From Rhodoflexus caldus (GTDB taxonomy: Bacteria > Bacteroidota > Bacteroidia > Cytophagales > Thermoflexibacteraceae): a DNA stretch of 64,000 bases. Of this stretch, positions 43,723 through 47,309 are shown piece by piece. The notes beneath the pieces are model-generated. The model had not been told where the DNA came from and searched no databases. It saw only the letters and a list, made by a program, of their open reading frames with translations. A program made the position numbers and the translations under genes. Numbering within the stretch: the first letter of the stretch is position 1; each line of letters opens with the position of its first letter. Location of the stretch: positions 186,001 to 250,000 of the forward strand of contig NZ_JAJPRF010000002.1 in assembly GCF_021206925.1 (NCBI RefSeq). Reading direction: 5' to 3'.

Positions 43723-44838
43723 ATGGCTAAACTTTACGAAGTTGCTTTGTCATTCATTCCCCAAATCGGGAGCGTGCTGACAAAGCAACTTGTAAGTTAT
43801 TGCGGCTCTGCCGAGCAGGTTTTTAAAATCAGCAAAGGAAAACTACTCAAAATACCTAACATCGGCGAAAAGACCGCCGCTCTGATTAGCGAACATCAGG
43901 CAGATGCCCTCAAAAAAGCAGAGGCAGTACTGAAACAAGCCGAAAAAGAGCAAGCTAAACTGTTGTTTTATACCGATGCCGATTATCCGCTGAGGCTCAG
44001 GCAGTTTGCAGATACTCCCGCGGTCATCTATTGGCAAGGCAATGCCGATTTGAACGCACCCGTAACAGTAGGCATAGTGGGTACACGCAAGGCAACCAAA
44101 TACGGCAAAGCCATTACCGAGCAAATCATTGCCCAATTGCAGCCGCTGAAAGCAACTGTTATAAGTGGACTTGCCTATGGTATAGACATTGTTGCACATC
44201 GCGAGGCACTCAAATATGACTTGCCGACCATTGGCGTAATGGGAAGTGGTTTAGACCGCATTTACCCGCATGAGCATGCCTCCACAGCCCGTCAAATGAT
44301 TGCCAACGGCGGACTTTTAACAGAATACACCTTCGGAACATCGCCCGCAGCGCCTCACTTCCCCAACCGAAACCGCATTATAGCTGCACTTTCGGATGCT
44401 GTCATAGTGGTTGAAGCTGCTGCCAAAGGAGGGGCGCTTATTACGGCAGAGTATGCCAATCAGTACAACCGCGAGGTATTCGCCGTACCGGGTAATTTGG
44501 GTCAAACCTATTCGGAAGGTTGTAACTACCTGATTCAAAACCACAAAGCGCATATTTTCACCTCTGTGGAAGCGATGGTCGCCGCCATGAACTGGCACAA
44601 TGAAACCCAAGGACAGGCAGGCAAATCAGCCGCAAAATCGCATCAAGTAAGTGTTCTGAATTTAGCCAAAGAAGAGGCAGAAATATACAGCCTGCTGAAA
44701 CAGCATGGCGAAATGCACTTGGACGATTTGGGCTGGCAAAGCGGCCTTGGTGTATCGCAAGCAGCTGTGGCACTGCTCAGCCTTGAATTTCAGGGACTTG
44801 TAAAATCTTTACCCGGGAAAAAGTTTGCTATCAGCTAA
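43723..44838 (+). CDS. dprA: DNA-processing protein DprA
   Basis: The 371-residue protein has a helix-hairpin-helix region at about 10-70 (KGKLLKIPNIGEKTAALISE), the Rossmann-like DprA core at about 75-290 (TVGIVGTRKATKYGKAIT, VISGLAYGIDIVAHREAL, GSGLDRIYPHEHA, FPNRNRIIAALSDAVIVVEA) and a C-terminal winged-helix domain at about 310-371. DprA loads RecA onto incoming single-stranded DNA during natural transformation. It follows hisD by 10 bases and is probably on the same transcript. Confidence 0.95.
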   Translation: MAKLYEVALSFIPQIGSVLTKQLVSYCGSAEQVFKISKGKLLKIPNIGEKTAALISEHQADALKKAEAVLKQAEKEQAKLLFYTDADYPLRLRQFADTPAVIYWQGNADLNAPVTVGIVGTRKATKYGKAITEQIIAQLQPLKATVISGLAYGIDIVAHREALKYDLPTIGVMGSGLDRIYPHEHASTARQMIANGGLLTEYTFGTSPAAPHFPNRNRIIAALSDAVIVVEAAAKGGALITAEYANQYNREVFAVPGNLGQTYSEGCNYLIQNHKAHIFTSVEAMVAAMNWHNETQGQAGKSAAKSHQVSVLNLAKEEAEIYSLLKQHGEMHLDDLGWQSGLGVSQAAVALLSLEFQGLVKSLPGKKFAIS

Positions 44839-44857
44839 ATAAAAAACCGTTAAAGTC

Positions 44858-44887
44858 TTGCATAAATCAAGGTTGATATTAACTTTG
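44858..44887 (+). promoter_or_regulatory. Promoter of the 44907 membrane-protein/regulator operon
   Basis: TTG at 44858-44860, a 19-base spacer and TAACTTTG at 44880-44887 match the Bacteroidota TTG-N(17-23)-TAnnTTTG consensus. The ATG at 44907 lies 19 bases downstream. The end of the -7 element is also the left arm of the palindrome at 44882-44898. Confidence 0.7.
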
Positions 44888-44898
44888 TATTACAAAGT
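44882..44898. promoter_or_regulatory. Palindromic operator, copy 1
   Basis: ACTTTGTATTACAAAGT is a perfect 17-base palindrome: 7-base arms around ATT. The left arm overlaps the -7 element, so bound protein would block transcription. A matching site lies before the gene at 45901. The small winged-helix protein encoded at 45512 is the obvious candidate binder. Confidence 0.7.
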
Positions 44899-44906
44899 AC
44901 TTTTTA

Positions 44907-45515
44907 ATGAACAACAAACAAGATTATATCAACGACCTTGCGCAAATCCGCAGTTTAATGGAGCGTTCTTCGCGCTTTCTGTCGCTTTCGGGCTGGTCGG
45001 GAATCATGGCAGGTATATACGCCCTCACAGGCGCATATCTTGCGCACACGCTTTTTCAGTTTCAGCCTAATACACTGGTTTACAGTATACCTGAAAATTT
45101 TCAACAAGTTGTTGTCATGGCAATACTTGTTTTGCTGCTCACTTTGATTACGGCTGCTGCTTTATCTTACCGAAAAGCTACCGGTAGGGGAGAGCCGTTT
45201 TGGAATATTGCTTTGCGTCGTTTGCTGGAAAATATGGCCGTGCCCTTGGTAGCAGGCGGGCTTGCGATACTTGCCTGCATCAGTAGCGGATTGATAGGTA
45301 TGCTTGCCCCGCTCACACTGATTTTTTACGGCTTGGCACTGCATGGTGCAAGTAACTTCACCTATCGCGAATTGCGGTTGCTGGGCATTATACAAGTAGT
45401 TCTTGGGCTGCTTGCGATGTGGTTTGTAGCATACAGTCTCCTGTTTTGGGCGGTCGGATTCGGCATTATGCACATAGTTTATGGGATTTACATCTATTGG
45501 AAGTACGAACGGTGA
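44907..45515 (+). CDS. Four- to six-helix membrane protein paired with a winged-helix regulator
   Basis: The 202-residue product has a short charged N-terminus (NNKQDYINDLAQIRSLMERS) and about six hydrophobic segments, beginning SLSGWSGIMAGIYALTGAYL and ending LFWAVGFGIMHIVYGIYIYW. I recognise it as a conserved Bacteroidota membrane protein commonly found next to a small HTH regulator, but no function is known to me. Its TGA overlaps the GTG start of the regulator gene (GTGA), so the two are translationally coupled. A complete promoter and a palindromic operator precede it. A signal-transmitting or stress-related role would be speculation. Confidence 0.75.
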   Translation: MNNKQDYINDLAQIRSLMERSSRFLSLSGWSGIMAGIYALTGAYLAHTLFQFQPNTLVYSIPENFQQVVVMAILVLLLTLITAAALSYRKATGRGEPFWNIALRRLLENMAVPLVAGGLAILACISSGLIGMLAPLTLIFYGLALHGASNFTYRELRLLGIIQVVLGLLAMWFVAYSLLFWAVGFGIMHIVYGIYIYWKYER

Positions 45516-45811
45516 AAATATTGATAGATGGATTGCATAAAGCCTTTGAAAGCCGAGTCAGGTTGGGCGTTATGGCTGTGCTTGCAGTAAACGAAAGCAT
45601 GGATTTTAACTCATTAAAGGAATATCTTGACGTTACCGACGGCAATCTGGCAAGCCATCTGAAAGCTCTTGAAAAAGAGGAATTTATCGGTATAGAAAAA
45701 TCTTTTGTCGGTAGAAAGCCCAATACCCGATATTTTATCACACCGCAGGGGCGTAAGGCTTTTGAAGAACATATCAATGCATTGGAAAAACTGATTCAGT
45801 CACAAAAATAA
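45512..45811 (+). CDS. Small winged-helix transcriptional regulator (HTH_34 type)
   Basis: The 99-residue protein is little more than one winged-helix domain: LHKAFESRVRLGVMAVLAVN, then the recognition region LDVTDGNLASHLKALEKEEF and the wing KSFVGRKPNTRYFITPQGRK, ending in a short helix that could dimerise. This is the MarR-related HTH_34 group. I chose GTG 45512 because it starts exactly at the conserved domain and overlaps the upstream TGA; a longer reading from 45419 would run through the upstream gene. It probably binds the two palindromes at 44882-44898 and 45868-45884 and so controls its own operon and the next gene. No ligand-binding domain is present. Confidence 0.88.
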   Translation: MKILIDGLHKAFESRVRLGVMAVLAVNESMDFNSLKEYLDVTDGNLASHLKALEKEEFIGIEKSFVGRKPNTRYFITPQGRKAFEEHINALEKLIQSQK

Positions 45812-45867
45812 GCAGTTGTGAAAATCGTCAATAAGGGATAAGCACGCAATAAAATTTTCACACAATC

Positions 45868-45884
45868 ACTTTGAATTTCAAAGT
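45868..45884. promoter_or_regulatory. Palindromic operator, copy 2
   Basis: ACTTTGAATTTCAAAGT is a perfect 17-base palindrome with the same arms, the same ATT centre and the same following bases (ACTTTT) as copy 1. Its left arm forms the end of TCACTTTG (45866-45873), a 7/8 match to a -7 element, 27 bases before ATG 45901. Confidence 0.7.
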
Positions 45885-45900
45885 ACTTTTAACTAATCAC

Positions 45901-47166
45901 ATGGAAGAATCTATCAAAAACAATCTGAACAGCCCGCATGAGTTGGAAAAACTATATCGGGAAGATAAAATATCCTTCAAAAGGGCGTTTGACAATGTAT
46001 ATCCTGATATTCAGCATCATATGGTTTCACAGGTGTGGTATGAGCGCTTGCGTTTTGGGCAGGAAAAAATTTCGTGGGGCGTGAAAAATGAATTGCCTTT
46101 TGTTATTGTCTTGGCTGCTATTGCCGGAATAGTAGTTAATATACCCGATTGGATAGCCATAATTGATGAAAAGCTGGCCATTGATGACGAATATTTTTAT
46201 ACTCGCCACCTTGGTTTTTTGTTTCTGCCGATGCTCATGGTCTATTTTGCTTGGAAGAAACAATTGCGTTTGCTAAAAAGCATACTGCCGGTGGTCGGAG
46301 TAACTCTTTCAGTAGCATATATGAACCTGCTCCCTGATAATTCGGCAAGCGATACGCTTGGACTTGCCTGTATCCATATGCCTTTGCTCATGTGGGCCTT
46401 ATGGGGCTATTCGTTTATGGGGCAAGATTTAAGAAACTATATTGAGCGAATCAACTTCCTGAGATTCAATGGGGATTTGGTTATTCTTACAACTATTATG
46501 TTGCTTGCCGGAGGTATTCTGTCGGGTATAACTTTCGGCTTGTTTAGCCTGATTGATATCAACATAGCGAATTTTTATTTCCCAAACGTAATGAAGTGGG
46601 GCATAGTGGCAGCGCCTATTATCGGCAGCTACCTCGTGCAGGCGAATCCGCAGTTGGTCAAGAATGTATCGCCTGTGATTGCTAAGGTTTTTACGCCATT
46701 GGTGTTGATAATGCTGGTGGTTTATTTGGCAACAATTGTTTACACGGGTAAAAATCCATACAACGACCGCGATTTTCTAATTATTTTCAATTTATTATTG
46801 ATTGGCGTAATGGCTATTATTTTGTTTGCCGTTACGGAAACGGCCAAAAACAGCGCTGCCCGATGGAATCACCGGTTGCTTTTCATATTGTCTGTCGTAA
46901 CGATTGTAATTAATGCAGTAGCCTTATCGGCTATCATTTTCCGAATTTCCGAATGGGGCATTACCCCCAATCGCTTAGCCGTATTAGGCGGCAATTTGCT
47001 GATATTGACCAACTTAATAGCAGTGGCTTATTGGCTGATGCATACACTTAAAAATCCGCGTGCACTGGAAAAGGTTGACAACAGCATAGCGGCTTTTTTG
47101 CCTGTTTATACTTTGTGGACAATTATCGTAATTTTTATTTTTCCCGTATTGTTTAATTTCAGATAG
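45901..47166 (+). CDS. Multi-pass membrane protein, third member of the regulator locus
   Basis: The 421-residue product has a hydrophilic N-terminus of about 60 residues (HELEKLYREDKISFKRAFDN) and about twelve hydrophobic segments. It resembles the DUF4153-type membrane proteins of this phylum, but I am not certain of the family. ATG 45901 is chosen over 45871 because the latter lies inside the palindrome and -7 region. The operator at 45868-45884 is the twin of the one before 44907, so this gene should be co-regulated with the two genes upstream although it is separated by 89 bases and has its own promoter-like element. Confidence 0.7.
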   Translation: MEESIKNNLNSPHELEKLYREDKISFKRAFDNVYPDIQHHMVSQVWYERLRFGQEKISWGVKNELPFVIVLAAIAGIVVNIPDWIAIIDEKLAIDDEYFYTRHLGFLFLPMLMVYFAWKKQLRLLKSILPVVGVTLSVAYMNLLPDNSASDTLGLACIHMPLLMWALWGYSFMGQDLRNYIERINFLRFNGDLVILTTIMLLAGGILSGITFGLFSLIDINIANFYFPNVMKWGIVAAPIIGSYLVQANPQLVKNVSPVIAKVFTPLVLIMLVVYLATIVYTGKNPYNDRDFLIIFNLLLIGVMAIILFAVTETAKNSAARWNHRLLFILSVVTIVINAVALSAIIFRISEWGITPNRLAVLGGNLLILTNLIAVAYWLMHTLKNPRALEKVDNSIAAFLPVYTLWTIIVIFIFPVLFNFR

Positions 47167-47202
47167 ACCTGTTAAGCAGGTGAGCAGATTAATGCGTTCT
47201 TT

Positions 47203-47309
47203 TTTACCGCAGAGTGCGCAAAAGTTTAACCGCAGTGTACACAAAGAAAAGACTCATCATAAAAGCACTCAGTGCTCTTCGCGTAATACTCAGCGGGCTT
47301 TGCGGTAAA
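47203..47309. repeat. Intergenic inverted-repeat element
   Basis: The 107-base segment is bounded by TTTACCGCA (47203-47211) and its exact inverse TGCGGTAAA (47301-47309). Inside, ACCGCAG occurs twice in direct orientation 23 bases apart (47206 and 47229), and AGCACTCAGTGCT forms a tight hairpin. The CGCAG/GCAAAG style is like short dispersed intergenic repeats known from many bacterial genomes. It has no coding potential that I can see. Confidence 0.55.

Follow-up and report, generated by a model that had tools for sequence, protein, structure and literature searches.

The 64,000-nucleotide stretch of the Rhodoflexus caldus genome analysed here (contig NZ_JAJPRF010000002.1, positions 186,001 to 250,000; hereafter the window) contains three consecutive genes and two copies of a palindromic DNA element that together look like a self-repressing regulatory unit with a membrane partner (Table 1). 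The middle gene, which we refer to as the regulator, encodes a winged-helix protein of the HTH_34 family, and the genes on either side of it, gene 1 and gene 3, encode multi-pass membrane proteins. An earlier note on this DNA, made from the letters alone, had described twin palindromes and a small winged-helix gene between them, and both are there: ACTTTGTATTACAAAGT at 44882-44898 and ACTTTGAATTTCAAAGT at 45868-45884 are perfect palindromes save for the central base, each followed by ACTTTT, and the 99-residue protein matches HTH_34 (PF13601) with an E-value of 5e-30.

Table 1. Genes and sequence features of the regulatory module, in window coordinates
Feature	Position	Strand	Description
-33-like TTG, gene 1 promoter	44858..44860	+	24 bases before the first palindrome
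-7-like element TAACTTTG	44880..44887	+	8/8 match; TTTG common to the left half-site of site 1
Putative operator element, site 1	44882..44904	+	half-sites ACTTTG 44882-44887, CAAAGT 44893-44898, ACTTTT 44899-44904
Gene 1	44907..45515	+	202-amino-acid membrane partner; N-terminal helix and six predicted membrane helices
Regulator	45512..45811 (protein 45512-45808)	+	HTH_34 winged-helix protein, 99 amino acids; recognition-helix motif TDGNLASH
A/T tract AAAATTTT	45851..45858	+	precedes site 2; corresponds to the conserved AATTTTTTTA tract
Putative operator element, site 2	45868..45890	+	half-sites ACTTTG 45868-45873, CAAAGT 45879-45884, ACTTTT 45885-45890
Gene 3	45901..47166	+	421-amino-acid multi-pass membrane protein; presumed regulated target

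The regulator aligns over residues 16-95 to the complete HTH_34 profile (positions 1-80 of 80; 103.8 bits against a cut-off of 27) and is the only match to that family at E<=1e-6 in its own genome. It scores under the cut-offs of MarR (PF01047, 19.9 bits against 24.6) and ArsR (PF01022, 21.4 against 22), and is related to a protein of solved structure, PH1061 (PDB 1ub9, E 1.6e-7), a 100-residue protein whose aligned helix reads TPGNLDSH. The end of gene 1 overlaps the start of the regulator gene by 4 bases. A structural model of the gene 1 protein (predicted local distance difference test, pLDDT, 90) begins with a helix at the N terminus, after which come six long helices interpreted as membrane-spanning, and the N-terminal stretch IRxxMERSSRF contains several residues that are invariant among 41 homologues. 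Neither this protein nor that of gene 3 (model pLDDT 76.5) has a PDB fold match at E<=0.001, a Pfam match up to E 0.1 or an NCBIfam match over cut-off; at E up to 1 the 202-residue protein touches DUF3671 and the 421-residue protein touches DUF4153 and POPDC1-3, all far under the cut-offs of these models. Searches with PHROGs and PADLOC gave weak matches (best E 5e-5 and 3e-5) that name no role for these genes. Assignment of gene 3 to DUF4153 is unsupported, the window protein reaching E 0.56 and 9.7 bits against a cut-off of 27; 3 of 18 gene-3 homologues match that family weakly (best E 4e-4), and hhalign gives a probability of 0.2 for gene 3 against two DUF4153-type proteins linked to copies of the element.

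The exact arms ACTTTG-N5-CAAAGT occur at two sites in the whole genome of 3,963,705 bases, both of them here, 986 bp apart and around the regulator gene, and the reversed pattern occurs once. Four other places in this genome with two mismatches gave no convincing further target, one of them lying 49 bp before a 176-codon open reading frame (ORF). When 2-3 mismatches are allowed within the window, the 5 matches are not significantly different from the 4.2 and 4.7 expected from shuffles, which is what would be seen if A+T-rich promoters favoured such palindromes by chance. To this explanation we give practically no credence, and it is rejected by the shuffle and reversed-pattern controls in other genomes. 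We compared 102 regulator loci (62 the best-scoring, 40 hand-picked, with clade groups drawn after the sequences had been read), 79 of which form a close group, A1. Exact arms are present at 61/79 A1 loci against 0/790 shuffles, and arms with at most one mismatch at 74/79 against 8/790, counted from 1000 bp before to 600 bp after the regulator, so that the conservation near orthologous HTH_34 genes for which the earlier note had proposed a search is indeed found. The five A1 loci without such arms in this range all belong to one family (f10), and three of them have an exact arm pair further upstream. Of 194 genomes of the order and 395 of the phylum, 77 and 80, respectively, contain the 17-base element, with no match to the reversed pattern in either set.

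Comparison of the orthologous loci revealed that the 17-bp palindrome of the earlier note, although real, is part of a longer and oriented element, ACTTTG-N5-CAAAGT-ACTTT, in which the palindrome is usually joined, towards the gene, by ACTTT as a third half-site. A partner-sized ORF precedes the regulator at 93 of 102 loci, in many cases with an overlap of a few bases, although some of the 93 are not gene 1. The usual layout has one element directly before gene 1 and another 20 to ~280 bp behind the regulator, and the gene behind this second element varies by lineage, being the 421-residue protein here and an annotated creD in Bacteroides finegoldii. A different arrangement was observed in family f22 (L212-L219, helix TDGNLSSN), where at 7 of 8 loci the site is found 28-40 bp before the regulator gene itself and its right arm is altered.

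Whether the site goes with the regulator can be asked through gene 3, homologues of which were found in 37/194 genomes, an 81-residue fragment (G133) being dropped. An element with at most one mismatch lies upstream of gene 3 in 29/29 genomes that have the regulator and in 0/7 that lack it, a comparison that takes no account of phylogeny and in which G092 is counted as regulator-negative with a sole match of 32% identity (E 4e-11) and G065 offers 481 upstream bases. Among the 29, the element is within 500 bp in 24 and at 0.8 to 1.8 kb in five, and the regulator-negative genomes come from families f5, f7, f8, f10 and f14, of which only f10 is mixed (12 positive, 2 negative). In four genomes (G015, G039, G076, G080) the gene-3 homologue is not linked to the regulator, yet one or two elements accompany it. 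In contrast to the three-gene module envisaged by the earlier note, the third gene is exchangeable, and in some genomes it is an unlinked target.

The second line of evidence comes from a paralogous HTH_34 clade of 8 loci, which has an HSQLRL body, a T[AS]GNLSVQ or SIQ helix and its own partner-sized gene, and which forms a single clade with support 100/100. At all 8 loci GTTTA-N5-TAAAY and a less strict third half-site precede the partner gene, their register being that of ACTTTG-N5-CAAAGT-ACTTT, and 7/8 also have this motif behind the regulator. The AGTTTA-type operator is thus found at 8/8 paralogue loci and 0/86 loci with an Asp/His helix, and ACTTTG at 0/8 and 74/86, respectively. A scan blind to proteins with the strict pattern AGTTTA-N5-TAAACY-AGTTTA matched 6/194 genomes, with no control match, each time directly behind a paralogue gene by coordinates; the strict pattern misses 4/8 paralogue loci, where the third half-site or the arms differ. 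Overall relatedness of the regulators as the sole source of specificity is weakened by a protein from Aminicenantes (one contig of a metagenome-assembled genome, MAG) that combines a paralogue-like body (HSQVRL, KKPLTTC) with a TDGNLSTH helix and an ACTTTG site.

These comparisons bear on two further explanations. A different regulator, for example of the PadR family, could bind the palindrome while HTH_34 merely travels along, and HTH_34 itself scores weakly against PadR (PF03551), at 20.4 bits under a cut-off of 27. The genome of R. caldus also contains a look-alike, ACCTTG-N5-CAAAGT-ACCTT (G000:C4:224565-224586, L365), with two mismatches and the same three-half-site layout, 113 bp before a gene on the other strand that we presume to be PadR-like from the start of its protein; this suggests that PadR operators are of related design. 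We nevertheless consider such a regulator highly unlikely at the sites discussed here, as the HTH_34 paralogues carry correspondingly changed operators, the element is missing before gene 3 where HTH_34 is missing, and the association with HTH_34 extends to Streptomyces and Thermomicrobium. That the palindrome acts as an RNA structure or terminator is still less credible. Inverted repeats can fold, and the element would be partly transcribed if transcription started inside it, but the arms show little variation and no compensatory change (a constancy exaggerated because copies were chosen for at most one arm mismatch), the third half-site is a direct one and in the paralogue clade changes along with the first and second, copies stand before many unrelated genes, and positions 44700-47300 have no Rfam match. 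An apparent compensation between half-sites 2 and 3 (16/24 against 5/44) carries no weight because all 24 lie in L084-L111, a single set of relatives that confounds the comparison.

The reach of the element beyond the order was assessed with a protein-blind scan of 17 fixed bases in one genome per species, which matched at least 117 stretches, of which 80 among the matches listed were examined. By title, 68 of these 80 are from Bacteroidota and 12 from others (Ignavibacteria counted as other), although taxon labels of MAGs may be wrong. An HTH_34-type gene lies inside the stretch in 54/80. When such genes were recognised with a profile built from the 102 regulators, one was present within 2.5 kb and on the same strand in 47/68 of the Bacteroidota and 5/12 of the others; in two more of the 12, an Anaerolineales MAG and Microbacterium, the site precedes a partner-sized gene by ~30 and ~45 bp, judged by coordinates. 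Since ~30 matches are expected by chance in the whole collection, assuming even base composition, matches with no such support may be chance ones.

HTH_34 loci on plasmids provide a further sample, 30 of 32 distinct records being used, from Actinomycetota, Thermomicrobiota, Chloroflexota, Alphaproteobacteria, Bacteroidota and haloarchaea. In 23 of the 24 that are annotated, a hypothetical protein of ~110-280 codons is encoded directly upstream of HTH_34. Among the 21 loci whose regulator has a GNL helix, a full-arm TTT-N7-AAA palindrome precedes gene 1 in 8 (shuffle mean 0.11, maximum 2) and one with at least two of the three outer pairs in 13 (mean 0.81, maximum 4), whereas the full-arm palindrome is found at 0/9 loci with no GNL helix. 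Exact ACTTTG-N5-CAAAGT stands before the modules of Thermomicrobium and three Streptomyces.

From the pairing of helices and sites we propose a recognition code, in which the helix T-X-G-N-L-z-z-Y would set two letters of the half-site: X would determine position 2 (Asp giving C; Ala, Ser or Arg giving G) and Y position 6 (His giving G; Gln giving A). Contacts of Asp with C, His with G and Gln with A are chemically ordinary. The prediction was fixed before 16 of the 30 plasmid loci were retrieved, 9 of which have a GNL helix; it named 200 bp upstream of gene 1, and the scan used 300 bp, or a longer stretch for unannotated records. A site with at least two outer pairs was found in 4/9: two Streptomyces with Asp and exact ACTTTG, Natrinema with Asp and TCTTTG, and Streptomyces NBC_00503 with Ala, where the left arm is GGTTTG and the right arm GCTTTG. 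Weaker sites with imperfect right arms lie at the matching place in Natronococcus (TCTTTG) and Halostagnicola (GCTTTG), and the left arms fit the code in 6/6. The code of Asp-C, His-G and Gln-A is offered as testable and with exceptions, the base contacts being predicted ones. We lean slightly towards a wider reading, in which HTH_34 regulators that have a membrane partner share an ancient operator grammar across bacterial phyla and into haloarchaea (a half-site, N5 and an inverted half-site, with the third half-site in Bacteroidota), the helix residues setting the half-site letters and the system governing a regulon of membrane and envelope genes in Bacteroidota. Beside relatives of the regulator, the same signature is perhaps present in some archaea.

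Copies of the element away from the regulator point to a putative regulon. Forty orphan regions, a subset of the orphan sites, were hand-picked from the order and phylum scans before their genes were seen; they contain 42 elements, 39 of which have an ORF start within ~260 bp. At least two membrane stretches are predicted by a simple hydropathy scan in 31/39 element-linked ORFs and in 11/71 control ORFs of the same regions, the controls being at least 150 codons long and the test ORFs at least 60. Thirteen of the element-linked proteins were subjected to family searches, which gave, over cut-offs, CreD (two), an XrtN-sorted VIT protein, exosortase O, a YiiX/C92 peptidase, DUF4153 and DUF1361, and, under cut-offs, MauE and a B12-type radical SAM protein; the other four have no family name.

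The operator copies also have a consistent relationship to promoters at site 1. The promoter consensus of Bacteroidota consists of -33 and -7 elements, and the earlier note had claimed that the palindromes overlap the -7 elements of both genes. The -7-like strings are present at both left arms, matching at 8/8 positions at site 1 and, as TCACTTTG at 45866-45873, at 7/8 at site 2. At site 1 the overlap is borne out by the relatives: a TTG starts at -26 to -23 from the left arm in 56/68 aligned copies, and TA or TT stands directly before the arm in 58/68, as expected if the TTTG of the arm ends a -7 element. Site 1 thus appears to overlap the core promoter of the operon to which the regulator itself belongs.

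The explanation that we favour, with a probability of about 0.82, is that the regulator is an autorepressor that has a membrane partner and an operator of ancient origin. Comparison of genomes shows the conservation, the pairing of site and regulator, the paralogue operators and the regulon, while binding, repression, base contacts and the role of gene 1 are predicted from sequence. Gene 1 and the regulator would be a translationally coupled pair. A dimer of the HTH_34 protein would sit on ACTTTG-N5-CAAAGT, where the half-site centres are 11 bp apart, one helical turn, and the adjoining ACTTT would serve as an extra half-site for the same protein. At site 1 the bound regulator would cover the -7 element and the likely transcription start of its own operon, and it is for this reason that we propose self-repression. 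Through site 2 and the other copies it would control a regulon of mostly multi-pass membrane proteins, gene 3 included. The gene 1 protein most likely senses the state of the membrane and releases or sequesters the regulator, which it may bind at the membrane by analogy with SdpI and SdpR.

Several observations weigh against this explanation, and the first concern site 2. Here the promoter overlap of the earlier note does not hold: the window has no TTG within 45 bases upstream, TTG is found in 1/69 site-2 copies and the -7 element is degenerate, which gives no support at this site to simple occlusion of a standard promoter. What the site-2 copies have in common is a T-tract, the largest disagreement with the earlier note, with TTT at -11 to -9 in 63 of 69 copies as compared with 10 of 68 for site 1; a T-rich A/T tract is conserved 9-17 bases before the site-2 palindrome (45843-45867 in the window) and is similar in the paralogue clade, where 4/7 copies have a run of at least six T and the other 3/7 are A/T-rich. 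A T-tract with no -33 TTG is possibly an unusual type of promoter. These features would suit a regulator that activates, either throughout or at site 2 alone while repressing at site 1. We regard this as possible but unlikely, given that the element at site 1 lies over the presumed -7 and start region, where activators seldom bind, and that TTG is kept at 22/42 unlinked copies.

Other points on the same side concern the relatives and the code. All 7 loci of family f2 have the TDGNLASH helix and yet none has the element with at most one mismatch, although L205, L206 and L208 have ACTTTGTTTRTCAAACA, with two mismatches; the ACTTTG label of L208 in the tree rests on a distant chance match. The relatives compared are not independent. 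With regard to the code, no site was found at 3 of the 9 later GNL-helix loci (Phocaeicola, Hoyosella, Rhodococcus DN22), at the Azospirillum plasmid locus or at the loci of TAGNLSVQ proteins of Parabacteroides and Phocaeicola. The right arm breaks the code in Streptomyces NBC_00503, Natronococcus and Halostagnicola. Among the first 14 plasmid loci, position 6 of the left arm is A in Nonomuraea (TAGNLSVH), and the arms are mixed in Aureimonas and Natronosalvus (TEGNLASH). From the protein-blind scan, ACTTTG occurs with no Asp in Microbacterium (TPGNLTTH) and in the Anaerolineales MAG (TWGNLATH).

Among the papers listed by searches of the open-access literature, none describes the motif, HTH_34, its operator or its membrane partner. 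The closest parallel to the proposed autorepressor in organisation is the SdpR/SdpI pair of Bacillus subtilis, outlined in PMC1626106 as an autorepressor and a polytopic membrane protein that sequesters it. Both systems are two-gene units of a (here predicted) autorepressor and a multi-pass membrane protein, known in the present case from the paired gene layout. They differ in that the window regulator scores 14.1 bits against a cut-off of 100 for the SdpR model, that no Pfam family matches the gene 1 protein over its cut-off, and that in the window module the membrane gene comes first and a regulon with additional membrane genes is predicted. In method, the closest precedent is the account in PMC8565304 of two LexA-like clusters in Bacteroidetes, with the N5 motifs GGA-N5-TCC and CTAA-N5-TTAG and gel-shift support, where paralogous regulators likewise go with paralogous N5 palindromes; these belong to an unrelated protein family and to the SOS response.

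A few observations on the surrounding genomes can be added. Three genomes of the same genus lack the regulator, gene 3 was found in none of 12 other searched members of the family, and in the tree the regulator groups mostly with other classes and not with its own family; the module may have been acquired horizontally. Among the orphan regions, exosortase O (identified by search in L200, and in L202 by visual likeness) and the XrtN-sorted VIT protein (L180) lie directly behind an element, neighbours that would link the regulator to protein sorting in some Bacteroidota. A membrane protein of 96-192 residues starting [IV]AMQFT recurs behind the element in 8/40 regions (L167, L171, L175, L176, L181, L184, L186, L203), the one member searched having no family match, and a second recurrent protein of ~110 residues is found behind it in L166, L172, L182 and L183.

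If the autorepressor proposed here is correct, the widespread HTH_34 family would gain a predicted operator, a membrane partner and a regulon, all readable from sequence, together with a candidate recognition code that relates two residues to two bases. For the Bacteroidota, one common controller is proposed for envelope genes as varied as those encoding CreD, exosortase O, DUF4153 and DUF1361 proteins.

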